Below are positions 741 to 63,430 of a stretch of 64,000 nucleotides of DNA, piece after piece. The stretch comes from Bacteroidales bacterium (GTDB lineage Bacteria > Bacteroidota > Bacteroidia > Bacteroidales > P3): contig JAGBJI010000002.1 in the NCBI GenBank assembly GCA_017934545.1, positions 271,303 through 335,302 on the forward strand. The letters run 5' to 3'. Made by a program: the position numbers and the translations under genes. The stretch's first letter is position 1; every line of letters starts with the position of its first letter. Under the pieces are notes generated by a model, which saw only the letters and a list, made by a program, of their open reading frames with translations, was not told where the DNA came from and made no database searches.

Positions 741-837
741 AAGAAAACATTGTTTTTTCTTAAAAAACAAGAATTGTTTTCATAAGATAATTTTAAAAAA
801 CATATGTTTTTTCTTTTTACTTTCACAAAACAATTGT
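741..837. repeat. Degenerate A/T-tract palindrome array (CATATG family)
   Basis: One well-formed unit, AAAAAACATATGTTTTTT at 795-812, is accompanied by looser units centred near 750 (acattgt), 772 (caagaattg) and 833 (caattg). Spacing is 22 between the first two and about 30 between the others, so this is the least regular copy. The right flank (TTTTTACTTTCAC) resembles the right flank of the arrays at 22.4 and 27.2 kb. It occupies the gap between the OmpA-family gene and the lipoprotein gene at 944. Confidence 0.55.
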
Positions 838-943
838 GCAGGACGTAGGTTTGCAACAGTGAAAAAAGAAATTTTTTTACACTCGGTGTAACTTTTTTGC
901 ATTTTCGGGCGTTTTATATATGTTAAAAATAGAAAACAAATCA

Positions 944-1648
944 ATGAAGCGTAAAATTAAGACTTTATATATACTTGCTGCGGCGGCAATGATAGTGTTT
1001 GCCTCTTGCGGATTGGTACAGATGGATTTTGAAACAAGCCGTACCGTTAAACAGGCACAAAAACGTACGGACTATATATGTTTGAATGCCGCCAAGATGA
1101 AACAATTGATACTTTCGGACACAACGTGCTACAAGGTGGTGGACATCTATTCCCCTTGTTGCGGACCTTGTATTGAGAGTTTTGCAAACGCTTACCCGCA
1201 ATTCAAAAAACTCAATGACAGCCTGCCCGTTAAATATATTTATGTGTTGGACGGAACGGGTGCATTGAAATACAACGACAACGCAAGGGAAAAATACAAT
1301 ATCACGGGCGGCAAATATTATTTCCGCGACACCGTATCTTATTTTGCGGCACGCAAAGGCACGAAGTACAATGACTATTATCTGACAAATCTTACCAATT
1401 ACATTTTTAAAAACGACTCTCTGCCCAAGGTAACTCAACTTTTAGGCCTGCCGACATACTATTTGGTTAACAAGCAGGGGCGTTTGAAAAAATGCGTTTT
1501 TATAGATACGGACGGCAAACAATATATTGAACCGATGGATTTGCGGACGATTGCGGACAAACGTCTTGACGAGTTGGATTTTTATACTTTGGATACCGTA
1601 AGGATTGAAAACAATCAAATGATTTGCACTCCCGCAGGTTGCAAATAG
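944..1648 (+). CDS. Thioredoxin-fold (TlpA-like) lipoprotein
   Basis: This 234-residue protein starts with a lipoprotein signal (charged MKRKIK, a hydrophobic stretch, then FASC with the lipidated Cys at residue 22), so it should be anchored in the envelope. Residues 69-80 read YSPCCGPCIESF, giving the CGPC (Cys73-Cys76) dithiol motif typical of thioredoxin and TlpA proteins. A later cis-Pro candidate lies in LGLPTYYLVN. The likely role is thiol-disulfide exchange in the periplasm; the substrate is unknown. The frame extends to an ATG at 920, but only the ATG at 944 places the signal peptide at the N-terminus. No partner gene is adjacent. Confidence 0.75.
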   Translation: MKRKIKTLYILAAAAMIVFASCGLVQMDFETSRTVKQAQKRTDYICLNAAKMKQLILSDTTCYKVVDIYSPCCGPCIESFANAYPQFKKLNDSLPVKYIYVLDGTGALKYNDNAREKYNITGGKYYFRDTVSYFAARKGTKYNDYYLTNLTNYIFKNDSLPKVTQLLGLPTYYLVNKQGRLKKCVFIDTDGKQYIEPMDLRTIADKRLDELDFYTLDTVRIENNQMICTPAGCK

Positions 1649-1702
1649 TATTTGAGTGTAAATATTTGTACCTTGTGCATGCGGCAAAATGCAATTTTGT
1701 CT

Positions 1703-1710
1703 TATCTTTG
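1703..1710 (+). promoter_or_regulatory. -7 element of the Fic gene promoter
   Basis: TATCTTTG fits the Bacteroidetes TAnnTTTG consensus and lies 44 bp upstream of the Fic start codon. Confidence 0.5.
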
Positions 1711-1754
1711 CAATGATATAAGGCGGCAATTTCAATAAAAACTTTAAACGGTTT

Positions 1755-2492
1755 ATGAACAATATATTGAATATACTCAAAAGGGAAAAGGAAAATAAGA
1801 TAAAGGGCGGACTGTATCACAAAATACAGGTGTTGTTGACTTACAATTCCAATCATATAGAGGGAAGCAAGTTGACAGGAGAGCAAACCCGCCAGATTTT
1901 CGAAACAAATACCATCCTTGCAGACACAAACAATATTGACGTTGACGATATTTTGGAAACCGTAAACCATTTCCGTTGCATTGATTATATGATTGACAAC
2001 GCCCAAGCGGAACTCACCTCTGATTTTATCAAGCAATTGCACCGTATATTGAAAACCAATACTTCGCAATCCGGATTAGAGTGGTTTAAAGTCGGCGATT
2101 GGAAGATTTTACCCAACGAAGTGGGCGGTGAAGAAACGGTTGACCCTGAACAAACGGAAAACGAAATCAATAAACTTATTTCGCATTACAACAGTTTGAA
2201 GGAAAAAAGTTTTGAAGACATATTGGATTTCCATGTAAGGTTTGAAAAAATACATCCGTTTCAGGACGGAAACGGCAGAGTGGGCAGATTGGTCATGTTT
2301 AAACAATGCCTTGAAAACAATACAGTGCCGTTTATAATTGATGAAGAGCATAAACTGTATTATTACAGGGGATTGCAACAGTGGGACAATATAAAAGGTT
2401 ATCTTACGGACACATGTCTTTCGTGTCAGGATGTGTTTAAAACATATTTGGATTACTTTAAGATTGATTATACCGACGCAAAATCCGAATAA
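1755..2492 (+). CDS. Fic-domain protein (probable AMP transferase)
   Basis: The protein has 245 residues. The catalytic Fic motif is complete at residues 167-178 (HPFQDGNGRVGR), with His167 as the expected base and the Asp/Asn/Arg residues that bind the nucleotide phosphates. Near the N-terminus, S32-N-H-I-E36-G37 fits the inhibitory-helix motif (S/T)xxxE(G/N) of class II Fic proteins, where the Glu blocks productive ATP binding until relieved. The protein is therefore likely a self-inhibited AMPylase. No toxin-antitoxin partner or effector delivery gene is adjacent, and the target cannot be told. It has its own promoter and is followed by rnpB on the same strand. Confidence 0.85.
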   Translation: MNNILNILKREKENKIKGGLYHKIQVLLTYNSNHIEGSKLTGEQTRQIFETNTILADTNNIDVDDILETVNHFRCIDYMIDNAQAELTSDFIKQLHRILKTNTSQSGLEWFKVGDWKILPNEVGGEETVDPEQTENEINKLISHYNSLKEKSFEDILDFHVRFEKIHPFQDGNGRVGRLVMFKQCLENNTVPFIIDEEHKLYYYRGLQQWDNIKGYLTDTCLSCQDVFKTYLDYFKIDYTDAKSE

Positions 2493-2570
2493 ATTGCGTA
2501 AAAGTTTTCGTTCATTAGGCAAATAAACCGTAAGAAAAGCAAAATATTTTTTACGGAATATAATTTTTTG

Positions 2571-2578
2571 TAATTTTG
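2571..2578 (+). promoter_or_regulatory. -7 element of the rnpB promoter
   Basis: TAATTTTG matches TAnnTTTG. It lies about 90 bp before the mature RNase P RNA, implying a 5' precursor that is trimmed. Confidence 0.5.
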
Positions 2579-2668
2579 CAACGCAAAACGGCGGCGTAAA
2601 TACAATATTTAAAAAAGTATTGCACCGCAATGCAGGTCTTTGAACATAATTTAAACAATAAAAAACAG

Positions 2669-3084
2669 GGATGCAACGAAAGTTATCTGTCGCTTGCATT
2701 GTTTAAATGCAAGAGGAAAGTCCGTGCAACGCAGAGCATCATACTGTCTAACGGACAGGCAGGGATTTATTTTAATCTTTGACAGAAAGTGCAACAGAAA
2801 ATAACCGCCTTGAAAACAATTTGTGTCTTTTTAAGATATGAACCGTTTTCAGTGGTAAGGGTGAAAACGCAGGGTAAGAGCCTGCGGCAGCCGTCAGCGA
2901 TGGCGGTTTGCGTGTAAACCTTATGAGTTGAAAGTCCAAATATACCGGCAGGCAGAGATTAGTTCTTATTGCCAAGTGTCTGCTCGGCACTGCCGGGGGG
3001 TAGGACGATAGAGGCAAGCCGCAAGACTTGCCGTAGATTAATGACAGATGAAAAACAGAACACGGCTTACGAAACGTTGCATCC
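2669..3084 (+). ncRNA. rnpB: RNase P RNA (bacterial type A)
   Basis: The catalytic RNA of RNase P removes 5' leaders from tRNA precursors. The 5' conserved segment GAGGAAAGTCC occurs near 2711, the central GGGTGAAA and GTAAGAG segments near 2860-2880, and the 3' conserved ACAGAACACGGCTTAC near 3056. Helix P1 sets the ends: GGATGCAACG at 2669-2678 pairs perfectly with CGTTGCATCC at 3075-3084, and a run of eight T follows as a likely terminator. Length is about 416 nt, slightly longer than the E. coli RNA (377 nt). Short open frames across this region on both strands are not genes. Confidence 0.95.
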
Positions 3085-3119
3085 TTTTTTTTGTTCCTGT
3101 ACGGCATATGTTTGTGAAA

Positions 3120-3240
3120 AGAAAAAATTGTTTTCAGAATCCGTTTTGAAAAAACATATGTATTTTTACAAAAAAACATATGTTTTTTGATTAAAATTCA
3201 TATGTTTTTTTATTCAAAAACATATGTTTTTTATTTTTTA
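3120..3240. repeat. 22-bp-phased CATATG palindrome array
   Basis: Four units of the form A5-6 CATATG T5-6 have their CATATG at 3155, 3177, 3199 and 3221, exactly 22 bp apart; a further, less complete CATATG lies at 3105. The two inner units are joined by GATTAAAATT, as in the copies at 8.1, 15.2, 16.1 and 32.1 kb. The left flank contains TTTTCAGAATCC. The rest of the 406-bp gap between rnpB and metK holds the metK promoter and a leader of about 145 nt with no gene. Confidence 0.9.
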
Positions 3241-3331
3241 CTTCGCAAAAGAATGTTGTGTAATGCGGTTTTACACTGCGGAGGTGAAAATTTTTTGCAG
3301 TGTATATATATATTATATAAAAATATTGTCG

Positions 3332-3339
3332 TAATTTTG
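3332..3339 (+). promoter_or_regulatory. -7 element of the metK promoter
   Basis: TAATTTTG lies 152 bp upstream of the metK start, giving an unusually long untranslated leader. I see no recognisable SAM riboswitch fold in the leader by eye. Confidence 0.5.
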
Positions 3340-3490
3340 CAAAACAAAATGTGGACAGATTTGAATTGATTGCAACCACAATAAAAGAATGCTAAAACAA
3401 GAATCCTTTTATTTTTAAGAAAAATTCAATTCTTATTCATTTCCACTGATTTTATAATTAATTAACAATTAAAAAAAAACAGTAAAAGAA

Positions 3491-4735
3491 ATGTCAAGAT
3501 TTATAACTTCAGAATCAGTATCGGAAGGTCACCCTGACAAAATAGCCGACCAAATATCCGATGCGTTGTTGGACGAATTTTTAAGGCGTGACCCCAATTC
3601 GCGGGTTGCGTGCGAAACGCTTGTAACTACGGGTTTGGTGTTTTTAAGCGGCGAAGTAAAGAGCGAGAGTTATGTTGATGTACAGTTAGTTGCACGCAAT
3701 GTCATAGAGAAAATAGGTTACACCAAGGCCGAATATCAATTTGCGGCACATTCGTGCGGAGTTATATCCTCCATACACGAACAAAGCCCCGATATAAATC
3801 AGGGTGTTGACCGCAAAACGCCCGAACAGCAAGGTGCAGGCGACCAAGGAATGATGTTCGGTTACGCAAGCCGCGACACCGAAGACTTTATGCCTTTGCC
3901 GTTAGTGCTTGCACATCAGATTGTTTACGAATTGGCACAGATAAGGAAAGAAGGTATAATGATGAAATATCTTCGGCCTGACAGCAAATCGCAGGTGACG
4001 GTTGAATACGACGATAACAACCGCCCGGTTGCTATAAACACAATAGTAATTTCAACACAGCACGACGAAGACGTAAGTTTGAAACAGATAGAAAAAGATA
4101 TACGTCTGATACTTTTGCCCCGTATTGCTTCAAAGCAACGAAAAAAGGAAGTGAAAGCCATGTTTGAAAAAGAATTCCGTCTGTTTGTCAACCCGACGGG
4201 CAAATTCGTCATCGGCGGACCTCACGGCGACACTGGTTTGACAGGAAGAAAAATAATAGTTGACACATACGGCGGCAAAGGTTCGCACGGCGGGGGAGCG
4301 TTCAGCGGAAAAGATGCCAGCAAAGTGGACAGAAGTGCGGCTTATGCAATGCGTCACGTCGCCAAAAACATGGTTGCTGCGGGTTTGTGCGACGAAGTGT
4401 CGGTTCAGGTTGCCTATGCAATCGGCGTAGCAGAGCCTGTGGGATTGTACGTTGACACTTTCTCAACCAACCGTACACGTTTTTCCGAAGGGGAGATAGC
4501 ACAAAAACTGTTGAAAATATTTGATTTGCGTCCTTATGCAATCATTGAACGGTTCGGATTGAAGAATCCTATATTTTTACCGACCGCTACTTACGGACAT
4601 TTCGGCCGTACACCTTACAGAAAACCAGTTGAAATAATTGAAAACGGCAAAACAATAATGAAAGAAGTTGACTTCTATCCTTGGGAAAAGCTGGATTACA
4701 CGGACAAAATCAAAAAAGAATTCGGTTTGGAGTGA
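3491..4735 (+). CDS. metK: S-adenosylmethionine synthetase
   Basis: The enzyme makes S-adenosylmethionine from ATP and methionine in the cytosol. The N-terminus carries [19 protein letters not shown] with the ATP/metal-binding residues; the signature GAGDQG is at residues 115-120; the phosphate-binding GGGAFSGKD followed by KVDRSAAY lies in the central third; GHFGR is near the C-terminus. At 414 residues it is slightly longer than the E. coli enzyme (384). It is a single-gene unit with a long leader and a shared downstream terminator. Confidence 0.97.
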
Positions 4736-4770
4736 AAAAACGTTTTTTACGTTAACGTATCACAATAAAA

Positions 4771-4804
4771 AAAGCGGCACTTGAACTTTTTCAAGTGCCG
4801 CTTT
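4771..4804. terminator. Bidirectional terminator between metK and gpmA
   Basis: AAAGCGGCACTTGA and TCAAGTGCCGCTTT form a 14-bp stem around a short A/T loop. A-runs lie on the left and T-runs flank it, so it can end the convergent metK and gpmA transcripts. Confidence 0.9.
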
Positions 4805-4817
4805 GCTGCAATGAAAA

Positions 4818-5564
4818 CTATTTTTTGCCTTGGTTAGCCACCGCATCCATAAGTTTTTTTACGGTTTGCTCGTCGGCAAGAAACTCATCTTTGATTAAGT
4901 TCATATTTTCATCAAAAGTGAAAACATAAGGTATTCCCGTAGGGATATTGAATTTTATTATTTCTTCTTCACTCATCTTTTTAAGGTTCATAACTATTCC
5001 CCGCAAAGAGTTGCCGTGGGCGGCTATAAGCACGGTGTCATGGTTTTTAAATGCAGGCAACACCGTTTGATTGAAGTACGGCATGCAGCGGGCTATGCAA
5101 TCTTTCAGTGATTCGGTAAGAGGCAAATCTTTTTTGTCAACGTCTTTGTATCTTTCGTCAACCAACGGGCTTCTTTCGTCGTTTTCTTCCAAAGCAGGCG
5201 GCTGACAATCAAAAACCCTGCGCCATTTCAATACCTGTTCTTCGCCGTATTTTTCTGCAGTTTCTTTTTTGTTCAGTCCTTGCAACTGACCGTAGTGTTT
5301 TTCGTTCAATCTCCACGATTTGTAAACGGGAAGATAGTCCAAGTCCATTGCGTCCAAAGCAATGTTAAGTGTCTTTATAGCCCGTTTAAGATAGGAAGTA
5401 AAACAGATTTGCGGCTTTACACCGTATTGAATCATGGCTTTACCTGCCTCAAAAGCCTCTTGCTTTCCCTGTTCTGACAAATCAACGTCTTTCCATCCTG
5501 TAAAAAGATTCAATTTGTTCCATTCGCTTTGTCCGTGACGGACTAAAATCAGTTTCTTATTCAT
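4818..5564 (-). CDS. gpmA: 2,3-bisphosphoglycerate-dependent phosphoglycerate mutase
   Basis: The enzyme interconverts 3- and 2-phosphoglycerate in glycolysis. The start LVRHGQSEWN supplies the phosphohistidine RHG motif, NLFTGWKDVDLSEQG follows as in all dPGM proteins, and AAHGNSLRGI holds the second catalytic His. Length (248) is normal for the family. It lies just downstream of lgt on the same strand with a 20-bp gap, so the two are probably cotranscribed. Confidence 0.96.
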   Translation of the reverse strand: MNKKLILVRHGQSEWNKLNLFTGWKDVDLSEQGKQEAFEAGKAMIQYGVKPQICFTSYLKRAIKTLNIALDAMDLDYLPVYKSWRLNEKHYGQLQGLNKKETAEKYGEEQVLKWRRVFDCQPPALEENDERSPLVDERYKDVDKKDLPLTESLKDCIARCMPYFNQTVLPAFKNHDTVLIAAHGNSLRGIVMNLKKMSEEEIIKFNIPTGIPYVFTFDENMNLIKDEFLADEQTVKKLMDAVANQGKK

Positions 5565-5584
5565 GTTTTGTCGGTTTTAACTTA

Positions 5585-6448
5585 TTATTTATCTGTTTTT
5601 TTTATGATTGACAAATCCAATAATCTGCCTATGTTGCGTTTGGATGCAATGATTATTAAAACAATTCCTGCAATTATAAACGGTAAAGACAGAATTTGTC
5701 CCATGTTTATAAGCATTCCGTTCTCCCAAGACTCTTGTGAATTTTTTACAAACTCAATCAAAAATCTCATTGTGAACACTCCGAACAAAAATAATCCGAA
5801 AATCATGCCTTGGTTTACGGATTTTGTTTTTTTGTTCATAATAAAGAAAAGGATACATCCTATTATTATATATGATAAAGCTTCGTACAATTGGGTCGGA
5901 TGGCACGCCTGCGTCTGTCCGTCGCGTAAAAACACGAATCCCCACGGCAATTGGGTGGCTACACCGTATATTTCACTGTTGAACAAATTGCCTAAACGGA
6001 TGGAAGCACCCGCAAAACAGATGGCGATAACTAATCTGTCCACAACCCACATAAAAGGAATTTTGGTGTTGCGTGAATATATGTAAAGTGCAATCAGAAT
6101 ACCGATGGCTCCGCCGTGTGATGCCAAGCCTTGATAGCCTATAAACTTCAAACCGTCGGGCGTTATTTTTATGGGAAGAAGCATTTCAACGATGTGATGT
6201 GAGTAATAACCGAACTCATAAAACAGACAGTGTCCCAATCTTGCTCCTATTAAAACGGCTACAAATACATACAACGCCAATTTATCTAAATAAGATTGTT
6301 CTACTTTGTCTTTTGCAAAGAGTTTTTTGAGCATTAAATAACTTATAACGAATGCAAAAGCGAACAAAACGCCGTACCAACGGACTTCAATGTTGCCTAT
6401 ATGGGTTATAACGGGTGAAACATTCCAGTAAACGAACAATTCAGTCAT
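5585..6448 (-). CDS. lgt: Prolipoprotein diacylglyceryl transferase
   Basis: This inner-membrane enzyme moves diacylglycerol from phosphatidylglycerol to the lipobox Cys of prolipoproteins. It has 287 residues with about seven hydrophobic segments. The Lgt signature appears as GASIRLGNLFNSEIYG, and HGGAIG holds the conserved His-Gly-Gly segment. Many lipoprotein precursors in this window (for example at 944, 9385, 9941 and 37087) would be its substrates. A TAACTTTG -7 element (complement of 6471-6478) lies 23 bp upstream of the start. gpmA follows in the same direction. Confidence 0.96.
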   Translation of the reverse strand: MTELFVYWNVSPVITHIGNIEVRWYGVLFAFAFVISYLMLKKLFAKDKVEQSYLDKLALYVFVAVLIGARLGHCLFYEFGYYSHHIVEMLLPIKITPDGLKFIGYQGLASHGGAIGILIALYIYSRNTKIPFMWVVDRLVIAICFAGASIRLGNLFNSEIYGVATQLPWGFVFLRDGQTQACHPTQLYEALSYIIIGCILFFIMNKKTKSVNQGMIFGLFLFGVFTMRFLIEFVKNSQESWENGMLINMGQILSLPFIIAGIVLIIIASKRNIGRLLDLSIIKKTDK

Positions 6449-6470
6449 ACCAATATGAATATATTTTTTG

Positions 6471-6478
6471 CAAAGTTA
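6471..6478 (-). promoter_or_regulatory. -7 element of the lgt-gpmA promoter
   Basis: The minus-strand reading TAACTTTG fits TAnnTTTG and lies just before the lgt start. Confidence 0.5.
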
Positions 6479-6553
6479 CGAATAATTTTGCTAAAGATTG
6501 GAATTTTACCGCCTTATTTACACATTGTTCTGTTGTATAAACCGTTTTTTTTG

Positions 6554-6561
6554 TACTTTTG
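6554..6561 (+). promoter_or_regulatory. -7 element of the mnmE promoter
   Basis: TACTTTTG lies 30 bp before the ATG at 6591. It is inside the longest open frame, which shows that the upstream ATG at 6498 is not the start. Confidence 0.55.
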
Positions 6562-6590
6562 CAAGTTATAAACGTAAAAATGTGACGTAT

Positions 6591-7979
6591 ATGAATTTGC
6601 AAGACACTATCGCCGCACCTGCAACGGCAAGCGTAACATCGGCATTGGGCATTGTAAGACTGTCGGGCGGCGGTGCAATAGACATAGTATCAAAGATTTT
6701 TTCTTTACCTGATAAAAAAGATTTCGCAAAATGTGCTGCGGCAAACAGACTTTATTACGGTACGGTGACGGACAACGGTTCTGCGGTTGATGAAGTGGTT
6801 GTCGGCGTGTTCAAATCACCCCATTCGTTCACAGGTGAAGATATTGTTGAGATAACCCACCACGGCAGTGTGTTCGTTCAGCGTAAGATATTGGAGCTTT
6901 TGCTCTCCAACGGAGCAAGGCTTGCAGACAAGGGCGAGTTTTCGCTGCGTGCGTTTCTCAACGGCAAGATGAATTTGTCGCAGGCTGAAGCCGTGGCGGA
7001 CTTGATACAATCCACTTCCGAAGTTTCGCACAGTGTGGCTATGAGTCAGCTGCGTGGAGGCTATAACCGTGAATTGAAAAACCTGCGGCAACGGTTTTTG
7101 AAAATAGCATCTCTTTTGGAGTTGGAAATAGACTTTTCTGCCGAGCAGGAAGTGTTTGTTGACAGAAACGATTTGATAAATGAATTGAACGGGGCTATAG
7201 AAACGGTGAAAAGCCTTATAGGTTCGTTCCGTCAGGGCAACGCTTTTAAAAACGGAATACCCGTTGCCATTGCGGGCAAGCCCAATTCGGGCAAATCCAC
7301 TCTGATGAATGCACTTTTGAAAGATAACCGCAGCATAGTTTCAAGCACTGAAGGCACAACCCGTGACACTGTTGAGGAAACTCTGACGGTGAAAGGCATC
7401 AACATAAGGTTTATTGACACTGCGGGATTGCGTGAAAGCGACAACGAAATAGAACGTGAGGGTATCAAACGGTCGTTTCAGGCGATAAACAATTCGCAGA
7501 CGGTGTTGTATTTGATAGATTTGTCAAAAGACGATGTGCAATCGGTGGATTATCAGTTGGCTTTTCTCAAGCAGGATGCGGATTTAAACGGCAAGAAATT
7601 GATTTTGGTTGCCAACAAAGAAGATATTTCCAATCTGCCTGCAAAAGAAAGAAAAATATTGGAACAACGCGGGGCGGTGTTTATAAGTGCCAAGAACAAC
7701 GAATCGGTTGACAGAGTGTTGGATTTAATAGTTGAAGGTTTTGAAACCGAAGATATCAACTCCAAAGTGTTTGTCAGCAACGTCAGACATTGCGATGCAC
7801 TGAAAAAAGCATTGGAAAGCATGGAAGCGGCATACGAATGTGCATGTTCGGACGGCTCTGCGGATTTGATAAGCGAAGACATACGCCGTGCAAGCGGGGA
7901 TTTGGGACAGATAACGGGCGAGATAACCAACGAAGACGTGTTGACAAATATTTTCTCTTCATTTTGTATAGGCAAATAA
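6591..7979 (+). CDS. mnmE: tRNA uridine-5-carboxymethylaminomethyl modification GTPase
   Basis: With MnmG this GTPase installs the carboxymethylaminomethyl group on U34 of certain tRNAs. The 462 residues begin with the tetrahydrofolate-binding domain (DTIAAPATA, then GIVRLSG). The inserted G domain carries GKPNSGKST near residue 229, the switch DTAGLRE, and NKED. The protein ends in CIGK, the C-terminal CxGK motif with the catalytic Cys. The start at 6591 is chosen because it gives the standard N-terminus and lies 30 bp after the promoter. A strong hairpin follows the stop. Confidence 0.96.
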   Translation: MNLQDTIAAPATASVTSALGIVRLSGGGAIDIVSKIFSLPDKKDFAKCAAANRLYYGTVTDNGSAVDEVVVGVFKSPHSFTGEDIVEITHHGSVFVQRKILELLLSNGARLADKGEFSLRAFLNGKMNLSQAEAVADLIQSTSEVSHSVAMSQLRGGYNRELKNLRQRFLKIASLLELEIDFSAEQEVFVDRNDLINELNGAIETVKSLIGSFRQGNAFKNGIPVAIAGKPNSGKSTLMNALLKDNRSIVSSTEGTTRDTVEETLTVKGINIRFIDTAGLRESDNEIEREGIKRSFQAINNSQTVLYLIDLSKDDVQSVDYQLAFLKQDADLNGKKLILVANKEDISNLPAKERKILEQRGAVFISAKNNESVDRVLDLIVEGFETEDINSKVFVSNVRHCDALKKALESMEAAYECACSDGSADLISEDIRRASGDLGQITGEITNEDVLTNIFSSFCIGK

Positions 7980-7999
7980 ACGCAGTTTAATACTATTAG

Positions 8000-8040
8000 A
8001 AGGGCGGAAAAGTTTGCGGTTCTAAATTTTTTCCGCCCTT
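8000..8040 (+). terminator. Terminator downstream of mnmE
   Basis: AAGGGCGGAAAA and TTTTTTCCGCCCTT form a stem with a loop of about 15 nt just after mnmE, followed by TATTCCTTATT. Confidence 0.8.
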
Positions 8041-8077
8041 ATTCCTTATTATATATAGTTGCTTTGAGAATCCGCAG

Positions 8078-8168
8078 AAAAAAAAAACATATGTTTTTTC
8101 AACGAAAAACATATGTTTTTTGATTAAAATTCATATGTTTTTTTATAAAAATACATATGTTTTTTCAA
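8078..8168. repeat. 22-bp-phased CATATG palindrome array
   Basis: CATATG cores at 8088, 8110, 8132 and 8154 are exactly 22 bp apart, each between an A-run and a T-run; the two inner units are joined by GATTAAAATT. The left flank has GAGAATCCGCAGAAA and the right flank GAATTCAGAAAAG, which are roughly inverted with respect to flanks of other copies. It fills the 371-bp gap between mnmE and the DHH gene, after the mnmE terminator and before the next promoter. Confidence 0.92.
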
Positions 8169-8316
8169 AATGAATTCAGAAAAGAGTTTTTTTGTTTGTG
8201 AATAAAAAAGAGTTTTGCGGTGTGATAAAATTGTTTTTTATATTGCGGACGGGAGCGGGGCGTTGAATAATTTTCGGTTTTAAAGGGTGTATTTGTATTA
8301 ATTGTGTTTTTTTTTG

Positions 8317-8324
8317 TATTTTTG
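8317..8324 (+). promoter_or_regulatory. -7 element of the DHH phosphoesterase operon
   Basis: TATTTTTG with an upstream TTG at 8302 lies 27 bp before the start of the four-gene run that begins at 8351. Confidence 0.5.
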
Positions 8325-8350
8325 CATCTTATTACTTAAACAAACTGAAG

Positions 8351-9373
8351 ATGAAGTTCAAAAGAGGCGACATATTGAAACTGCAGAACTATATTGCAGA
8401 AAAGCAAACGGTGACTGTGATAACTCATTACAACCCCGACGGCGACGCAGTAGGCTCCGGGACGGCATTGTTCCACTATTTGAAACTGTTGCTTAAGGAC
8501 GTACACTTCATAATTCCTAACAATGTTCCGTACAGCATTAATTTTCTATTGCAAGATGTTGATTATACCATTGCCGAGCGTGATTTCAAAAAGGCAAAGC
8601 AACGTTTGATGCAGACGGATTTGCTTTTCATGGTTGACATAAACAACTATTCGCGTTGCGGGGACAATTTGGAAAGGGTTTTAAAGGAAATATCGCCTTC
8701 TACGGTGTTGATTGACCACCATGTAGGGCCGCAGGCGTACGATGTGGTGTTTTCTTACCCCGATGCGTCGTCAACGTGCGAAGCCGTATGGAACGTTTTG
8801 AACCGTTTGAGCGGCAAAAAAATCTTTCCGCAAAACATTTCACGGGCGTTGTATACGGGTATAATGACCGACACAGGCTCTTTGAGCTTTTCGTGCAACC
8901 ATCCCGAGTTGTATACGGTTATTGCCAATCTGTTGAAATCGGGAATCGTTGCCTCAAAAATAAATCAGAAGATATTTGATACATATTCTGCCGACAGGTT
9001 AAGCCTTTTGGGTTATGCGATAAGCAAAAAACTCAAAGTGTTTCCTAAACAAAGGGCGGCATTTATAGCTTTGAGTGCAAAGGAATTGAATGATTTTCAT
9101 TATCAGGCGGGAGATTTGGAAGGTGTGGTGAACTATTGTCTGAAATTGGAGCAGGTTGATTTTTGTGCGTTGTTAAGCGAGCGTGACAACAAGATAAGAA
9201 TGTCGTTCAGAAGCAAGGACGAAAGCATTGACGTCAACAAATTCGCCATGAAATATTGGAACGGAGGAGGACATGTCATGGCTTCGGGCGGAAAAAGTTT
9301 CCTTCCGTTGAAACAAGTGGTGGAAATACTTACAAAACAAATATACAATAAAGAGTTTATTGTGAGAAATTGA
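8351..9373 (+). CDS. DHH-family phosphoesterase (NrnA-like oligoribonuclease / pAp phosphatase)
   Basis: The protein has 340 residues. The N-terminal DHH domain shows VITHYNPDGDAVGS (metal-binding His and Asp residues), a middle metal Asp in MVDINNYSR, and LIDHHVGP, the DHH motif itself. The C-terminal DHHA1 domain ends with GGGHVMASGG, which binds substrate. Proteins of this size and layout degrade short RNA (nano-RNA) and dephosphorylate 3'-phosphoadenosine 5'-phosphate; which activity dominates here cannot be told. It is first in a run with three FKBP-like genes, the next start lying 11 bp after its stop. Confidence 0.88.
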   Translation: MKFKRGDILKLQNYIAEKQTVTVITHYNPDGDAVGSGTALFHYLKLLLKDVHFIIPNNVPYSINFLLQDVDYTIAERDFKKAKQRLMQTDLLFMVDINNYSRCGDNLERVLKEISPSTVLIDHHVGPQAYDVVFSYPDASSTCEAVWNVLNRLSGKKIFPQNISRALYTGIMTDTGSLSFSCNHPELYTVIANLLKSGIVASKINQKIFDTYSADRLSLLGYAISKKLKVFPKQRAAFIALSAKELNDFHYQAGDLEGVVNYCLKLEQVDFCALLSERDNKIRMSFRSKDESIDVNKFAMKYWNGGGHVMASGGKSFLPLKQVVEILTKQIYNKEFIVRN

Positions 9374-9384
9374 TTCGGCAGGAT

Positions 9385-9939
9385 ATGAAACGGATTTTTT
9401 GTGTACTGATATTGATTGCGGTGTTTTGCTCTTGCGGCAAAAGAAATTACAATGAAGATTTTGCACAGGGGGCTGATGAAGAACTCAACCGTCAGAAAGA
9501 GCGTGAACAAATGATGGAAGAATCGTTCAGACAGGCAAACCATGTAATCAATTACAAGGAACAGGAAAACATAAAGTCGTTTATAAACCGCAGAAAGTGG
9601 AACGCCGAGTACCGCAACGGCGTATGGATTGAGGTTTTGTCGCAGGGTAAAGGCGAAAAAGAGATAACGGAAGACAACACGGTGACGCTTTTGTATACCT
9701 GTATGTTGCTCAACGGCGGTAAATGTTCGTCTGACAGCGTGGAAGAGAAAACTTTCAACGTAAAAGGCGACACCCAAGTGCCGTTCGGTCTGATTACGGC
9801 GGTGAAAATGCTCAAAAAACTTTCAAAGGCACGCATAATAATTCCGTCGGCTCTGAATTTCTTTATATCGGAGGACGGGGAAAAAATTTCTGATAACAAT
9901 ACATTGATATATACCGTAGAAATAAAAGAAGTGAAATGA
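9385..9939 (+). CDS. FKBP-like lipoprotein with a degenerate isomerase domain
   Basis: The 184-residue protein has a lipoprotein signal (MKRIFCVLIL, lipobox FCSC). A charged helix follows (EELNRQKEREQMMEE), then a C-terminal region patterned like FKBP: GVWIEVLSQGKG, TVTLLYTCMLLNGG, and a final strand TLIYTVEIKEV. The typical FKBP segments (FDxS, VIxGW, IPxxLAYG) are poorly kept, so catalytic activity is doubtful. Similar proteins such as GldI assist protein secretion and folding in gliding Bacteroidetes; the link is inference. The ATG at 9385 is preferred to the TTG at 9370 because it starts the signal peptide. Confidence 0.72.
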   Translation: MKRIFCVLILIAVFCSCGKRNYNEDFAQGADEELNRQKEREQMMEESFRQANHVINYKEQENIKSFINRRKWNAEYRNGVWIEVLSQGKGEKEITEDNTVTLLYTCMLLNGGKCSSDSVEEKTFNVKGDTQVPFGLITAVKMLKKLSKARIIIPSALNFFISEDGEKISDNNTLIYTVEIKEVK

Positions 9940-9940
9940 G

Positions 9941-10828
9941 ATGAAAACGAAAAGGAATTTGATTTTAATACTGACCATTCTTTGTTTTGCTTTTACAGGA
10001 TGCAAAGGCGATGACGGATTTATACAAACCGAGTCGGGATTTTCATTTAAAAGATGCACCAACCACGATTCCGCTCCGAAAGCTTCTGTAGGTGACGTGA
10101 TATACGGCGAAATGAAAATTTTGCTTAATGATAAACAGCCCGTAGCTTCTACTTACGGCTCGCCGGGACGGATGTTTGTTATCGGCAATTCAGAAGTGGG
10201 CAGCATAGATGAGTTTTTGCTCACTTTGCATGTAGGAGATTCGGCGGTGATGACCGTTCCTGCCGACAGCATGTCGCAATATACATCCAACATAGTGACG
10301 CGTCCGGGCGATAAATTGTACATCTACATGACTGTATCGCAGATTATATCCCGCAGCGAGATATCTTCCCAACAGAGAGAGGTGATTGAACGTCAGAAAG
10401 CGGAGGAAGAATCGCTTACGGACTATGTTCTGAACAATTATTCCCGTGCCAACCGCATGGAAAGCGGACTTTTTTATTTGAGCAAGTACGAAGGACAGGG
10501 TGCAAAGGTGCAGTACGGCAAACGCATATATGTTAATTACAGCGTAAAAGACACTTCGGGCAAATTGTACGACACAAACGTGGAACAAATTGCTAAAGAC
10601 AATTCTGTTTATTACCCGCAAAGATTGTACAAACCGTTTGATTTCATATTGGGAGATGACGCTTTGATAGCGGGATGGACAGAAGGATTGTCATATATGC
10701 ACGTAGGAGGTAAAGCAACGTTGGTTATACCGTCCAAACTTGCGTACGGGGAAACGGGAATGGGACAAATACCGCCATACACTCCGTTGGTGTTTGAGAT
10801 AAGTGTGGTGAATATGACCGATGAGTAG
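9941..10828 (+). CDS. FKBP-type peptidyl-prolyl isomerase lipoprotein
   Basis: The protein has 295 residues and a lipoprotein signal ending in FTGC, so it is probably membrane anchored in the periplasm. The first half is an FKBP-like N-terminal domain without clear active-site residues. The second half is a canonical FKBP domain: YVNYSVKDTSGKLYDTN, PFDFILGDDALIAGW, GGKATLVIPSKLAYGE, PPYTPLVFEISV. It should catalyse proline isomerisation during folding of exported proteins. It starts 1 bp after the previous stop, and the next gene starts 31 bp after its own stop. Confidence 0.88.
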   Translation: MKTKRNLILILTILCFAFTGCKGDDGFIQTESGFSFKRCTNHDSAPKASVGDVIYGEMKILLNDKQPVASTYGSPGRMFVIGNSEVGSIDEFLLTLHVGDSAVMTVPADSMSQYTSNIVTRPGDKLYIYMTVSQIISRSEISSQQREVIERQKAEEESLTDYVLNNYSRANRMESGLFYLSKYEGQGAKVQYGKRIYVNYSVKDTSGKLYDTNVEQIAKDNSVYYPQRLYKPFDFILGDDALIAGWTEGLSYMHVGGKATLVIPSKLAYGETGMGQIPPYTPLVFEISVVNMTDE

Positions 10829-10859
10829 AGAGAATAATAATTTAAAAACACATACAGCA

Positions 10860-11777
10860 ATGAAAAAAACAATATTTACCGTTGCAATTATTTGTTTATG
10901 CAACTTGGTTACGGCACAAAACGATGTCAACACCATGACTTTGGGTGATGACGGAGTGAGATACAAGATAGAAATCAGCAATCCGCAGGGACGCCAACTC
11001 AAAGAAGGCGATTTAATCATAGGAAGATACGAGATATTTTACGACGATTCGTTGATATTCTCTTGTATGAACCGTCCGCCTCAACCTGCTATTCCAGTAT
11101 TGGAACAAAACCGCGTGTTCAAAGGCGATTTGATGGACGGTTTGAAGCATATGCGTGAGGGTGAAACGGCATTGTTTGCCTTTGCAAAGGACTCTATGGC
11201 CAAATATCCTACGGGTGTGCCGGCAGATTTGGAGGCTTCGTATATTTATTACCGCGTTGCAGTGGATTCGTTGACTACTTTGGCGCAAATGCAGCGTGAG
11301 ATGGAAGCCCGTCAGGCAGAAATAGACAAACAGGCCGACAGTATGCGGGCAATAGAAAACGAAATGATTGAAACTTATTTGCAGCAAAACTCTTGGGACA
11401 AGACCAAAAAAGACGGTATTTACGTAAAACACTTGGTTCAGGGCAGCGGACGGCAGGCCAAGGACGGCGACGTGGTTCAGATTCATTACATAGGACAGTT
11501 GCTTGACGGCAAAGTGTTTGACACATCTGTTGAAGATGTTGCAAAGGAAAACGGAAAGTACAATGCGGCAAGGGATTACAAACCTTTGGAATTCAAAATC
11601 GGAGCAGGTCAAATGATACCCGGCTTTGAGATTGCGGCAAAACAGTTGAAGCAAGGCGGCAAAGCAACGGTATTATTACCGAGCGATTTGGCTTACGGAA
11701 GCAGGGATTTGGGCGATATAAAGCCTTTCTCACCGCTTTTGTTCACAATAGAGTTGGTTAAAATTGTCAATAAATAA
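10860..11777 (+). CDS. Exported FKBP-type peptidyl-prolyl isomerase
   Basis: This 305-residue protein has a classical signal peptide (MKKTIFTVAIICLCNLVTAQ) with no lipobox Cys, so unlike its two neighbours it is probably soluble in the periplasm. A first, atypical FKBP-like region is followed by a helical linker rich in Gln/Glu/Arg, then a canonical FKBP domain: VQIHYIGQLLDGKVFDTS, PLEFKIGAGQMIPGFE, GGKATVLLPSDLAYGS, SPLLFTIELVKI. The ATG at 10860 is chosen over an upstream start at 10821, which would overlap the previous gene and bury the signal peptide. It is last in the DHH-FKBP run. Confidence 0.88.
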   Translation: MKKTIFTVAIICLCNLVTAQNDVNTMTLGDDGVRYKIEISNPQGRQLKEGDLIIGRYEIFYDDSLIFSCMNRPPQPAIPVLEQNRVFKGDLMDGLKHMREGETALFAFAKDSMAKYPTGVPADLEASYIYYRVAVDSLTTLAQMQREMEARQAEIDKQADSMRAIENEMIETYLQQNSWDKTKKDGIYVKHLVQGSGRQAKDGDVVQIHYIGQLLDGKVFDTSVEDVAKENGKYNAARDYKPLEFKIGAGQMIPGFEIAAKQLKQGGKATVLLPSDLAYGSRDLGDIKPFSPLLFTIELVKIVNK

Positions 11778-11839
11778 AAATAAAAAGGCGTTTTGTTGCA
11801 GCCTTTTCAGATAAAAATGATGCCCGACGCCGTTTAATT

Positions 11840-11952
11840 TCCGCCCCTTGCGGAAACAATTCCGAAAAAACCTATTTTTTCGCATCAAAAAAATAGGTTT
11901 TTTAAGGCAAAAAAATAGTTTTTTTTCACATTAAAGCGGCAAGGGGCGGAAA
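11840..11952. repeat. A/T-tract array with CCTA/TAGG cores
   Basis: Three units lie at about 11865-11880 (core CCTA), 11885-11903 (TAGG) and 11907-11927 (TAG), about 21-22 bp apart. The first two are reverse complements and can form a hairpin with a 6-nt loop. The array is framed by an inverted repeat, CCGCCCCTTGC at 11841-11851 and GCAAGGGGCGG at 11939-11949. It sits between the FKBP run and the exonuclease gene. Confidence 0.88.
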
Positions 11953-12027
11953 CACAAAGGCAAAAGGCGGATTTTTAATCTCAAGGGGCGGGGAAAAACA
12001 GCGTTTTTGTTTAAACAGAAAGAAAAG

Positions 12028-12831
12028 ATGGAACTTAATTTACAAAAACCGATAGTCTTTTTTGACCTTGAAACTACGGGAGTCAACATAGGAAAAGACC
12101 GTATTATACAAATAGGTATGATAAAACTTATGCCTGACGGCGGGCAAATGAAATACAATCAGTTAATCAACCCGAAGATGCATATTGCGGAGGAGATTTC
12201 AAGGCTTACGGGCATAACCGACGGCGATGTAGCCATGTCGCCCGAGTTCAAAACCGTGGCTCAGGAGATTAAAGACTTTATTGGCGAGAGCGATTTGGCG
12301 GGATTCAACTCCAATAAGTTTGACATACCGTTGTTGGTTGAAGAGTTTTTGCGTTGCGGTGTTGATTTTGAGTTGACAGGGCGCAGTCTTATTGACGTTC
12401 AGAACATATTTCACAAGATGGAACAGCGTACGCTTTCGGCAGCATACAAGTTTTATTGCGGCAAGGAGTTGACCGACGCCCATTCGGCAGACGGTGACAC
12501 GCTTGCAACGTTGGAAGTGTTGAAAGCACAGCTGGACCGATACGACGGAGTTGAGTACAAAGACGGCGAAGGCAGGATTTCCAAGCCCGTAGTTAATGAC
12601 ATGAAACAGTTGGGACGCTTTTCCCGTACTAACAATTGGGCGGATTTGGCGGGTCATATATATTATGACGACAATTTGGTGCCGTGTTTCAACTTCGGAA
12701 AGCACAAAGGTACTCCTGTTGCCGAGGTATTTAAAAAGGAACCGTCGTACTACGCTTGGATGATGAACGCCGAGTTTCCTCTGTCTACGAAAAAAATCAT
12801 CAAACAGATAAAAGAATTGAGCAGAATATAA
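12028..12831 (+). CDS. DnaQ-like 3'-5' exonuclease with an ExoX-type C-terminal region
   Basis: The protein has 267 residues. Residues 10-20 read VFFDLETTG, with Asp13 and Glu15 as the Exo I metal ligands of the DEDD exonuclease family; GFNSNKFDIPLL fits Exo II, and HSADGDTLAT near residue 152 fits Exo III with a His (DEDDh type). The C-terminal 50 residues (FNFGKHKGTPV, YYAWMMNAEFP) resemble the small C-terminal domain of exodeoxyribonuclease X-like proteins. It may act in proofreading or repair. The ATG at 12028 is preferred to a TTG at 12007. The next gene starts 13 bp downstream, suggesting cotranscription through recN. Confidence 0.85.
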   Translation: MELNLQKPIVFFDLETTGVNIGKDRIIQIGMIKLMPDGGQMKYNQLINPKMHIAEEISRLTGITDGDVAMSPEFKTVAQEIKDFIGESDLAGFNSNKFDIPLLVEEFLRCGVDFELTGRSLIDVQNIFHKMEQRTLSAAYKFYCGKELTDAHSADGDTLATLEVLKAQLDRYDGVEYKDGEGRISKPVVNDMKQLGRFSRTNNWADLAGHIYYDDNLVPCFNFGKHKGTPVAEVFKKEPSYYAWMMNAEFPLSTKKIIKQIKELSRI

Positions 12832-12844
12832 ACTGAAAACGATT

Positions 12845-13459: not shown

Positions 13460-13502
13460 ACGTTAGGTTGTTTGCGGTTGATAAAACCTTTGTTTGACGG
13501 TT

Positions 13503-15340: not shown

Positions 15341-15356
15341 TAAAAGGAAAATGTTT

Positions 15357-55842: not shown

Positions 55843-55930
55843 CTACAAAACCGTTTTGCAAACCTTGCAAAACGGTTTTGTAATGCTTGCAGGACGGTTT
55901 TGCAGATGTTGCAAAACGGTTTTGCAGGAA
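55843..55930. repeat. 22-bp-phased array with CGG cores
   Basis: Four units of the form GCAAAACGGTTTTGC (first one inverted) have CGG/CCG at 55851, 55873, 55895 and 55917, exactly 22 bp apart. Units 1 and 2 form a 15-bp stem with a 5-nt loop. The right flank AATCCGGTGCGGAAAACAATTTTTC resembles the right flank of the CATATG array at 16.1 kb. It sits in the gap between the M1 peptidase and the ECF sigma gene. Confidence 0.92.
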
Positions 55931-61534: not shown

Positions 61535-61915
61535 ATGAACCATAGTTTTGAAAAATATTGCGTCAGTTGCGGTGCTGTGATAGACAGAAACGCCGAATAT
61601 TGCCCTAAATGCGGAGTAAAACAAAGCGAAAACTACCAAGACAACCGTCAAAACCAAAACAATAACAATCCTTTCGGAAACAATCAACGCTCAAACGTAT
61701 TGGATATCAACAAAGAGTGGATTATAACCCTTTTGCTTTGCATATTTTTGGGAGAGTTGGGCGTTCATAGATTTTACAACGGCCGCATTGGAACGGGATT
61801 GCTGATGCTTATTACTTTGGGAGGGCTTGGTATTTGGTATCTTATAGATATTATCTTTGTCGTTATGGGGCGTTTTAAGGATAAAACGGGCAAATATATA
61901 CAATCCAATATATAA
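61535..61915 (+). CDS. Zinc-ribbon and TM2-domain membrane protein
   Basis: The 126-residue protein starts with a zinc ribbon (CVSCGAVIDRNAEYCPKCG, two CxxC pairs), an Asn/Gln-rich linker, and a TM2 domain with two membrane helices around LCIFLGELGVHRFYNGRIGTG and LGGLGIWYLIDIIFVVMG. Function is unknown; TM2 proteins are widespread. It follows atpC by 33 bp and precedes the AlkD-like gene by 15 bp. Confidence 0.88.
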   Translation: MNHSFEKYCVSCGAVIDRNAEYCPKCGVKQSENYQDNRQNQNNNNPFGNNQRSNVLDINKEWIITLLLCIFLGELGVHRFYNGRIGTGLLMLITLGGLGIWYLIDIIFVVMGRFKDKTGKYIQSNI

Positions 61916-61930
61916 CAATCAAAATTTTTT

Positions 61931-62920
61931 ATGACTAAACAGGAAGTTTTGCGTTTGCTTTCGCAGAAAAAAGATGACAAAAAAGCGGAAGGCATGCGTT
62001 CTTACGGCATACACGGCGAATTGTACGGGGTAGGTATGCCTGATTTGCGGAATATTGCAAAAAAGATTAAGACCGACCACGCACTTGCCATGCAGTTGTG
62101 GCATGAAAACGTGCATGAAGCCAAACTGCTGGCTACTTTAATTGCCGATTGCAAACTTTTGAGTGACAAAGAGATTGATTCGTGGTTGAAAGATTTTGAT
62201 TCGTGGGACTTGGTAGACCAAGCCTGCATGAATCTGTTCCGTTACACGCCCGCAGCCATTGAACGTATTGAGGAGTTTGCCCGCAACGACAACGAGTTTA
62301 TACGCCGTACAGCCTTTGCACTGATGGCAACTATGACTGTGAATAAAGATATTGAGGATAAACAATTTGTAAAATATCTGCCGTTGATAACAAAGTATGC
62401 AACCGACGAACGCAAGATGGTTTATCAGGCGGTGGATTGGGCATTGCGTAATATAGGCAAACGCAGTACAGAACTGAAAACAAAGGTTTTGGATATCGCA
62501 CACGCAATGTATGAGTCTGAAAATAAGATTCAACGGTACATAGGGCGGCAAAGCATCAAAGCATTGGAAGAAGGCAAGGTTGTTTCTTGTGTTTCGTTGA
62601 AAGAGGATAAGACTGACGGACTTAATGTGCCGAAAAAATCCGTTGCAAAGCCGCTCAATCATAAACTTTACGAGTTTGACGCCGTTATTATCCCTGACAG
62701 TGAGATAGATGCGGCGTGGATAGAGATTCCTTTTGACGTTAAAAAAGAATTCGGTAAGTCACGGGTCAAAGTCCATGCGACTTTTGACGGCGAGCCATAC
62801 GACGGCTCAATCGTTAAGATGGGAACGCCCTGCCACATACTCGGCATTTTGAAATCTATCAGAAAGAAAATAAATAAGCAAGGCGGTGATACAGTGCATG
62901 TAACCATCAAGGAACGATGA
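61931..62920 (+). CDS. AlkD-like DNA alkylation repair protein fused to a DUF1905 domain
   Basis: The 329-residue protein joins two domains. Residues 1-220 are AlkD-like HEAT repeats: [62 protein letters not shown]. This family excises alkylated bases as a DNA glycosylase. Residues 240-329 are DUF1905-like: [29 protein letters not shown] and [20 protein letters not shown], often fused to YdeI-type domains. The combined role is unknown. It probably shares a transcript with the TM2 gene and ends at a hairpin. Confidence 0.87.
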
Positions 62921-62976
62921 CCGTTTTTCCTCCCTCCGACCTTTATTTCGGGCTGTAAAACAAATGATTATATTTT

Positions 62977-63010
62977 CAAAGAGGATAATTTATAAAAATT
63001 ATCCCCTTTG
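62977..63010 (+). terminator. Terminator after the AlkD-DUF1905 gene
   Basis: CAAAG, GGATAATT and their complements AATTATCC, CTTTG form an interrupted stem of about 13 bp, followed by TTTTT. Confidence 0.85.
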
Positions 63011-63109
63011 TTTTTATAATTTGCAATACATATATATTAATGTATAAGATTAAAATTTTAATCTGCCGTCAATATCTCCGCCCTGCACATTTTTGATACA
63101 TATATATAA

Positions 63110-63180
63110 TAAGGTATACCTATATTATAATAATGGTGACCTCATATATAATATATGTATACCTATATATAATATATGTA
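63110..63180. repeat. AT-rich direct repeats upstream of the rRNA operon
   Basis: The string TATATAATATATGTA occurs twice within about 30 bp, with a related TATACCTATATTATAAT copy to the left. Base composition is almost pure A/T. No gene is visible. Confidence 0.6.
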
Positions 63181-63289
63181 AAAAATAAAACCGATAATAA
63201 AAACCCCGCACTTTTTAATAATAAAACCAATAACCCCTTCAACGCACTGCCGTTATAAATGATTAAAATCCGAGAATAACCCTCTGCAA

Positions 63290-63430
63290 TCAGAATCCGT
63301 TTTAGCCGAACGCCGCTTTGGAGAAGAAAAAAGCAGGTTTTTTGAGTGAAAAAACCACTTTTTTTGCAACAAAAAACCACTTTTTTTCTGATGAAAAAGC
63401 AGGTTTTTTCATTACTTAAATCAGAATCGG
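63290..63430. repeat. 22-bp-phased array with GCAGG/CCAC cores
   Basis: Four units have cores GCAGG at 63333, CCAC at 63355, CCAC at 63377 and GCAGG at 63399, exactly 22 bp apart. CAGAATCCG lies left and CAGAATCGG right. The array is in the 1,048-bp region between the AlkD-DUF1905 gene and the 16S rRNA gene. Confidence 0.9.

Follow-up and report, generated by a model that had tools for sequence, protein, structure and literature searches.

The stretch of Bacteroidales DNA analysed here (contig JAGBJI010000002.1; G000:C1:271303-335302, where G000 is its own genome of 2.38 Mb in 14 contigs) spans 64,000 nt, has a G+C content of 0.41 and is called the window (W) throughout. Its longer intergenic gaps carry short arrays of A-run/core/T-run or otherwise palindromic units repeated every 21-22 bp, which are the subject of this work. 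Arrays were detected with Tandem Repeats Finder (TRF) and a scan for at least three A6/T6 units; in the window, TRF reports 22-bp arrays at 3149, 8079, 15233, 16065, 22415, 27168, 32053, 43587, 55846 and 63326 and a 21-bp array at 49293, and the unit scan picked up another at 11.9 kb. An earlier sequence-only reading had named 13 gaps as array-bearing and described their units as an A-run, a core and a T-run. All 13 gaps do hold an array, although that at 0.75 kb is degenerate with one CATATG unit, and the description fits only loosely at 49.3 kb (TTTTCWGAAAA, period 21) and 55.8 kb (CAAAACSGTTTTG, period 22).

Two A-tract families, F1 and F2, dominate in G000. An F1 array of four CATATG units with a period of 22 bp occupies 3149-3232 (+ strand), preceded by the RNase P RNA gene (2672-3085) and followed by a SAM-II riboswitch (3345-3405) and metK (3491-4735); in the sister species G001 the RNase P gene sits elsewhere and metK retains an array and the riboswitch region. 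Further four-unit F1 arrays, all on the + strand, lie at 8079-8170 upstream of a DHH-family gene (8351-9373), at 15233-15318 upstream of an open reading frame (ORF) beginning at 15384, at 16065-16155 upstream of dnaN (16311-17459) and at 32053-32140 upstream of an HU-HIG family gene (32250-32669). A single F1 unit, A6-CATATG-T6 (795-812, + strand; G000:C1:272097-272114), stands within a degenerate A/T-tract stretch at 741-812 with TTTTACTTTC downstream. F2 arrays, to which no strand is assigned, lie at 11864-11925 (three units, cores CCTA, TAGG and TAG, with inverted CCGCCCCTTGC arms on both flanks), 22415-22478 (three units: TGTGA, TAGG, TCAGA), 27168-27228 (three units: CCTA, CTGG, CCTA; genes divergent), 43587-43649 (three units: TGTGG, TAGG, TCAGA) and 63326-63409 (four units: GCAGG, CCAC, CCAC, GCAGG; the right arm has ATCAGAATCGGC). 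Also without strand are an arm-type array of about three TTTTCWGAAAA palindromes at a period of 21 bp, similar to the inner arms of F1 and F2 (49293-49353), and an F3 array of four CAAAACSGTTTTG-type palindromes at a period of 22 bp (55846-55927).

Beyond the window we scanned 400 kb more of the same genome, giving a 464-kb sample (W, C10 1-340000 and C11 60001-120000), and stretches of its relatives: the genus of G000 is sampled by 14 species or genomes, and G014 and G015 represent other genera of the same family. Among the 80 MetK relatives listed, most are from Bacteroidota, and the closest named one is a yak-rectum metagenome-assembled genome labelled Bacteroidales, at 72% identity. Genes were called with our own crude longest-ORF caller, whose length cut-offs differ between scripts. 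With at least three units required, the scan found 11 arrays in W, 35 in C10 and 6 in C11, 52 in total, of which three (W 8185, C10 54686 and C10 144204) were afterwards discarded as spurious or composite. Such arrays are real and lie far outside chance expectation. The sequence-only reading had named an equal frequency of such units in shuffled intergenic sequence as a ground for refutation; this did not prove to be the case, with 0-1 arrays in each near dinucleotide-preserving shuffle (five per contig) against the 11, 35 and 6 observed. Its statement that every long gap has an array is true of the window but fails in the 464-kb sample, where 45 of 108 gaps of at least 200 bp hold F1, F2 or F3, and its statement that gaps below 200 bp have none is contradicted there by F1 in one gap of 100-149 bp and three of 150-199 bp. 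Counting any 21-22-bp array, 65 of the 152 gaps of at least 100 bp are occupied.

F1 consists of four CATATG-core units in a fixed orientation, with an almost invariant inter-unit segment 2 (1.7% divergence) and variable short spacers elsewhere. Allowing at most two mismatches, A6-CATATG-T6 has 500 matches in G000 (control pattern, 7), 50 in G009 (control, 2) and 0-6 in each of the 12 other genomes of the genus; the distant G028, G034 and G040 give 13-34, no more than their controls. F2 comprises three or four A6-N3..5-T6 units plus outer GCC modules at 21-bp steps, and its cores come from small species-specific sets: CCTA/TAGG, TGTGA/TCACA, TCAGA/TCTGA, CCCCC, CCAC/GTGG and GCAGG/CCTGC among others in G000, mostly CAG/CTG and CCC/GGG in G001, and CCC, CTC, CAG, GAG and CTA in three arrays of G009. 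Both families have TTTTCWGAAAA-like inner arms. In F2 of G000 the outward GCC motif is found at -30/-31 in 34 of 34 arms, at -51/-52 in 20 and at -73 in 10, with 23, 19 and 18 of 24 arms at the corresponding steps in G001, so that up to about nine modules, set near-symmetrically on a 21-22-bp lattice, make up an F2 element. Its arms are inverted left versus right, follow a common consensus and fade outward without a sharp end. We considered stem pairing of the arms, as RNA or as a cruciform, and found no sign of it, because similarity between the two arms of an element barely exceeds that between arms taken from different elements (0.52 against 0.50 in G000; 0.73 against 0.71 in G001; 21 G000 elements, including four later set aside, and 12 G001 elements). 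Additional G000 families on the same lattice are F3, F6 (TTTTGAACSGTTCAAAA) and arm-only TTTTCWGAAAA arrays. Clustering of TRF units merged F1, F2 and arm arrays, and the number of independent families is therefore not taken from it.

What these arrays preserve best is their spacing. The F1 statistics cover 45 copies with recognisable CATATG units, a requirement by which decayed copies are missed and CATATG divergence is zero by construction. Of 140 pairs of neighbouring CATATG cores, 138 are spaced by 22 bp and the other two by 23 bp, and the first and last cores are separated by 66 bp in 44 of 45 arrays and by 67 bp in one. The array cores of 44 copies contain 250 substitutions, whereas only one copy of 45 has an indel, despite the homopolymer runs. 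Divergence reaches 29% in the inter-unit 4-bp spacers against 3.5% at tract positions, and 6.6% per bp in the core as a whole, compared with 32% in the arms' inner 25 bp, where comparison without gaps overstates the divergence. The distance from arm to unit is 21.5-22.5 bp in 63 of 90 F1 arms and 20.5 or 23.5 bp in 8, the motif being absent in 19; these distances were picked as nearest to 22 and are biased towards it. F2, for which the seven-unit array at C10 270858 was additionally omitted, has cores of 3, 4, 5 or 7 bp and single intervals of 21 to 23 bp, and yet its first-to-last distance is 43.5-45 bp in all 27 arrays with three recognised units. Across G000 gaps of at least 80 bp, palindrome centres are spaced by 22, 44 and 66 bp in 35, 33 and 27 cases, compared with 0 in one shuffle of the gaps, although the shared ancestry of F1 copies inflates these counts. 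A generic A5-N-T5-N-A5 pattern search was discarded as evidence because its control is itself periodic. Together, these data suggest that spacing, more than sequence, is the constrained feature of the arrays.

The same period recurs in relatives with other units. Arrays with a period of 21-22 bp or a multiple of it occupy 65 of 152 gaps of at least 100 bp in G000, 89 of 234 in G001 and 56 of 148 in G009, against 0-2 in mononucleotide shuffles and 0-7 for five other period classes. Smaller samples gave 8 of 23 gaps in G002 and 10 of 24 in G013, and the other genera of the family 5 of 33 (G014) and 2 of 17 (G015); farther away, four genomes of the same order have one in 81 gaps and 80 named MetK loci have four in 265. 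The two-turn trait is thus pronounced in some members of the genus, extends to other genera of the family and becomes rare among the more distant relatives sampled. Unit types include TTAATCACGCAGATTAAT and AAACGCCGTTT modules in G001, GTTTAAC types in G002, AAATAG..CTATTT and TACATTAGCAATGTA in G013, CTAACGTCGTTAG and CTAATGGCRTTAG in G014, and TTGTACAA in G015. One G014 element (L277 near 4700) combines direct modules, palindromes and inverted modules, three of each, and so repeats the plan of F2 in unrelated sequence. In a strict test of TRF consensus units, all eight non-F1/F2 units of G000 are palindromic.

Read by eye, orthologous gaps show such differences between species. Upstream of metK, G000 has F1 and G001 a 21-bp CTGCGA/AAACGCCGTTT array, each preceding the promoter and SAM-II region that the two species share. 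Where G000 has F1 at 8.1 kb, F2 at 11.9 kb and F1 at 15.2 kb, the corresponding gaps of G001 hold 21-bp arrays and those of G009 arrays of a GTGCCGA..TTTTCTGAAAA type. Ahead of argS, whose G000 copy follows the HU-HIG gene that the 32.1-kb array precedes, G001 has an array type of its own, and the same is true ahead of the orthologs adjoining the F1 arrays at C10 54.6 kb and C10 47.0 kb. By eye, no array was seen in the G009 ortholog of the C10 47.0-kb gap, nor was one seen ahead of dnaN in G001, where the upstream gene differs from that in G000. For 70 G000-G001 ortholog pairs with upstream gaps of at least 60 bp, arrays are present in both species at 25, only in G000 at 12, only in G001 at 7 and in neither at 26 (Fisher p 0.00012); in the same order, the counts are 13, 6, 6 and 15 for G000-G009 (p 0.025) and 14, 10, 7 and 31 for G001-G009 (p 0.0021). 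The 25 gene pairs with arrays in both G000 and G001 represent 21 distinct gap pairs, 18 of which have different families when the first listed unit is read. F2 is present in both species at the other three (window 22.4 kb, C10 232.4 kb and C10 277.7 kb), and the G001 counterpart of the 22.4-kb array (C9 about 138574) has G001-type cores. Position is common to the species at least as often as expected by chance, and sequence mostly is not. The arrays of G001 and G009 still differ at a median ortholog identity of 85%, the value for either against G000 being about 76%; at the latter identity the intergenic DNA of relatives is too diverged, and no clean empty site was obtained. The sequence-only reading had proposed looking for the same conserved arrays in relatives; that comparison, run in part, finds many of the same places occupied, but for the most part by other families.

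Within gaps, the arrays tend to lie upstream of promoter-like motifs. We searched for TAnnTTTG, which we take to be the Bacteroidota -7 promoter motif, around 52 elements (49 scanned arrays and three F3 arrays, with three overlapping short ORFs then excluded). Of 62 G000 cases in which an array faces a gene start, 45 have the motif in between and directed towards the gene; in the reverse direction the figure is 11 of 62, and on gene-end sides it is 2 of 36. The same test on all two-turn arrays gave 34 of 47 in G001 (control 8), 5 of 7 in G002 (control 1) and 9 of 10 in G013 (control 1). The distance from array to motif, F1 and F2 together, ranges from 38 to 427 bp without a fixed value. Among G000 gaps of at least 200 bp, arrays occupy 17 of 29 divergent ones, 25 of 64 co-directional ones and 3 of 15 convergent ones. 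The 43 arrays of G001 show less directional bias, with 13 in divergent, 22 in co-directional and 8 in convergent gaps.

Some, but not all, of the arrays are predicted to be curved. We used a wedge model that correctly made A4T4CG curved and T4A4CG straight, as known. Per 88 bp, it bends F1 by 88 degrees, F2 of G000 by 96 and F2 of G001 by 110, compared with 38-39 for shuffles, and adding 5 bp to each unit of F1 or F2 lowers the bend to 20-39 degrees. The 21-bp arrays of G001 show only a slight excess (50 degrees; shuffle, 36). The sequence-only reading had raised curved DNA as an explanation, which suits F1 and F2 but not other families of the same period (15-50 degrees); curvature belongs to two families and is not the cause of the period.

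We tentatively favour, at not quite an even chance, the reading that the arrays are phased docking sites for a putative DNA-bending or wrapping protein, placed mostly upstream of promoters and subject to fast sequence turnover. Short sites every 21-22 bp, palindromic in G000, would match two turns of B-DNA, and sites two turns apart all face one side of the helix. The better-preserved elements are dyad-symmetric, with direct modules, central palindromes and inverted modules. A dimeric or HU-like protein might occupy several neighbouring sites and bend or wrap the gap, with the phased A-tracts of F1 and F2 perhaps pre-bending the DNA, and a gap so bent or wrapped could insulate or poise the adjacent promoters. 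Most arrays do lie upstream of promoters, often between divergent ones, with others in gaps of different kinds. Spacers of fixed length and freer sequence, set between conserved same-face sites upstream of promoters, argue for a protein assembly rather than an RNA structure; protein binding, bending or wrapping and a transcriptional effect are what we infer. The idea of a two-turn-phased site for an architectural protein, already put forward from the sequence alone, gains from a phasing that proved broader than A-tracts. The best mechanistic match would be an Lrp/AsnC protein: the operators of one such protein, BarR, comprise several semipalindromic intergenic sites two helical turns apart, with DNA that appears wrapped around an octamer (PMC10201364). 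In the G000 families, too, the sites are palindromic, spaced by two helical turns and placed upstream of promoters.

Several observations weigh against a docking array or lend it no support. Although the geometry fits an Lrp/AsnC octamer, AsnC_trans_reg (PF01037) matched in 0 of 14 genomes of the genus, against 11 of 14 controls, including a Bacteroides, and we found no trans-acting factor for the arrays. HU-family matches number 7 in G000, 23 in G002, 25 in G014 and 13 in G006, and an association of arrays with HU genes was rejected as near the base rate, a two-turn array being present in a neighbouring gap of four of the seven G000 genes. Arrays also sit in convergent gaps (3 of the 15 in G000; 8 of the 43 arrays in G001), and any sequence that gaps tolerate, except between promoter and gene, would show the same placement, so that position alone is no proof of function. 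In the ortholog tables, divergent gaps are counted twice; at gaps of at least 150 bp the association is weaker (p 0.082, 0.19 and 0.26 in the three species comparisons), since in each species a majority of the long promoter gaps hold arrays, and downstream gaps of at least 60 bp are associated too, more weakly (p 0.042, 0.028 and 0.11), which means that shared position is not special to gene starts. The strong model curvature is not shared by F3 (36 degrees; shuffle, 41), F6 (46; 36) or arm arrays (15; 39). Two members of the genus have few arrays (G005, 2 of 27 gaps; G011, 1 of 11). Finally, palindromic units (p<=0.1) number 8 of 24 in G001, 0 of 9 in G002, 1 of 5 in G013, 0 of 2 in G005 and 1 of 8 in the outgroup, for which reason our claim of a common period is firmer than that of common palindromy.

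The rival that deserves most attention is that the arrays are selfish, non-autonomous repeats, akin to miniature inverted-repeat transposable elements (MITEs), minisatellites or BrickBuilt, that spread where they do least harm and whose phasing serves a recombinase, a transposase or the array-building process rather than the host; we consider this possible but doubtful. Mobility had also been suggested from the sequence, and F1 is indeed dispersed and lineage-specific. F2 has inverted arms with GCC modules every 21 bp, the three direct, three palindromic and three inverted modules of the G014 element formally resemble transposase-binding ends, and BrickBuilt offers a precedent in Porphyromonas gingivalis (PMC4596501). 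However, the 45 F1 copies have a mean pairwise identity of 75% and a best of 90% over the core and about 40 bp on each side, so that the sampled part shows no fresh copies; no target-site duplication was recognised by eye in any of them; and the contrast between core and arms, overstated as it is for the arms, is unlike the neutral decay of sequences of equal age. Relatives often have another family at the same promoter, which simple presence or absence of an insertion does not predict. The Y1 transposase PF01797, the sole transposase family searched for, was matched in none of four genomes (G000, G001, G009 and G002), with controls matching in 5 of 14. The BrickBuilt terminal inverted repeat GAGACCTTTGCA has 4 matches with at most two mismatches in the window, against 4.8 expected by chance. 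Intrinsic curvature alone, by which phased A-tracts would position plectoneme tips or aid promoters without a specific protein, draws on the bends of F1 and of F2 in both species, but appears unlikely given that F3, F6, arm and G001 21-bp arrays share the period at 15-50 degrees and that the units of G014 and G015 are not A-tracts. Clusters and periodicity of phased A-tracts give intrinsic curvature and have been proposed to help organise the nucleoid together with architectural proteins (PMC3940949); here, by contrast, the arrays are discrete, exact and set in gaps, and families of the same period lack A-tracts or model curvature.

We regard it as quite unlikely that F1 is a conventional regulon, in which four tandem operators serve one repressor or activator and the other families other regulators. 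A palindromic CATATG in four copies on one face, upstream of promoters, is what such a regulon would have, but 500 unit matches amount to roughly 125 arrays at four units each, the window neighbours (metK, dnaN, the DHH-family gene and the HU-HIG gene) have no evident common pathway, most sister species have few unit matches, the distance to the promoter motif is anything but fixed, and F2 cores vary inside one array. Transcription terminators or RNA hairpins are a very unlikely general explanation, although individual sites have that look: some G001 21-bp modules (AAACGCCGTTT followed by T-runs) resemble bidirectional terminators, as do the hairpins AAACGGCGTT...AACGCCGTTTTATTTT and AAGCGTCACTT...AAGTGACGCTTTATTTT between convergent ORFs at window 36310-36400, and a terminator-like site at 3272-3304 lies 40 bp past the 3.2-kb array. 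Yet a scan of window 1-20000 gave 22 terminator-like sites (21.1 expected), all of them outside the five main arrays there, although it requires at least three G-C pairs and is thus blind to A/T hairpins; arrays are commoner in divergent than in convergent gaps of G000; and the left and right arms match each other hardly better within an element than between elements. Finally, gaps rich in A+T might yield arrays by chance, given a G+C content of 41% in the window and the A+T-rich make-up of the arrays, but shuffling refutes such an origin: shuffled gaps held 0-2 arrays against 56-89, and the palindrome-centre spacings, even if inflated by F1 ancestry, did not occur in one shuffle of the gaps.

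Among known systems, dispersed intergenic palindromes in inverted pairs are familiar from REP/BIME and from REPIN with RAYT. The present arrays differ from these in their strict two-turn spacing, and REPIN/RAYT was rejected as a candidate for want of a Y1 transposase match in the four genomes searched. Porphyromonas gingivalis belongs to the order Bacteroidales, and its BrickBuilt and MITEPgRS elements appear to be the nearest relatives in kind. As described (PMC4596501), BrickBuilt is intergenic, with a 23-nt tandem repeat, a leader, a tail and small inverted ends, and has 19 non-identical copies of 1 to 22.8 repeats in ATCC 33277; MITEPgRS/MITE464 has 41-nt repeats. Both are like the present arrays in being short intergenic tandem repeats, imperfect within an element, whose arms have inverted ends (PMC4596501). 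Unlike BrickBuilt, however, the present arrays fill about 40% of gaps of at least 100 bp in the three species sampled and use several unrelated units, about 3-7 per array, and in contrast to its 23-nt unit, a period of 21-22 bp or its multiples is found in 65 of 152 G000 gaps and one of 23-24 bp or its doubles in 7. TRF calls four G000 intergenic arrays at period 23, but those re-measured by unit centres stay at about 22.

It is quite possible, if somewhat on the doubtful side, that these arrays represent a class of intergenic element defined by geometry: dyad-symmetric modules on a two-turn lattice, in many promoter gaps, with units replaced wholesale between sister species while position and phasing persist. 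If so, turnover would be concerted, as if the arrays co-evolved with a fast-changing binding protein or underwent active rewriting. Bacterial intergenic repeats are usually defined by sequence, whereas here the constant is helical phasing. The question of nucleoid organiser or parasite would become testable, with natural replicate designs within one genus and half-turn insertions as a control, and a period-only, sequence-blind search would catch systems that similarity searches miss. In a literature search, with most subscription journals outside its reach, we found no report of sequence-independent two-turn arrays in Bacteroidales, and none describing a period common to unrelated sequences across a bacterial family or sister species with different families at the same promoters.

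Some further repeats deserve mention. The hairpin module at window 36310-36400 is also the building block of 21-bp arrays in G001. At window 63096-63180, a TA-rich tandem array with a 21-bp period (ATACCTATATATAATAATGT) adds another unit type of the same period, and nearly perfect 32-bp direct repeats at G000 C10 133223-133373 (4.7 copies, 95% match) are among the few intergenic arrays off the two-turn period. At window 48954-49112 lies an element of about 160 bp with inverted runs of a tetramer plus CACA every 10-11 bp, which has nine further copies in C10 of G000. Its tetramers are of GCTA, GATA, GACA, GGCA or GCCA types, uniform at some loci, mixed at others and different between loci, and in most copies a TTTTCAGAAAA 21-bp array comes next.

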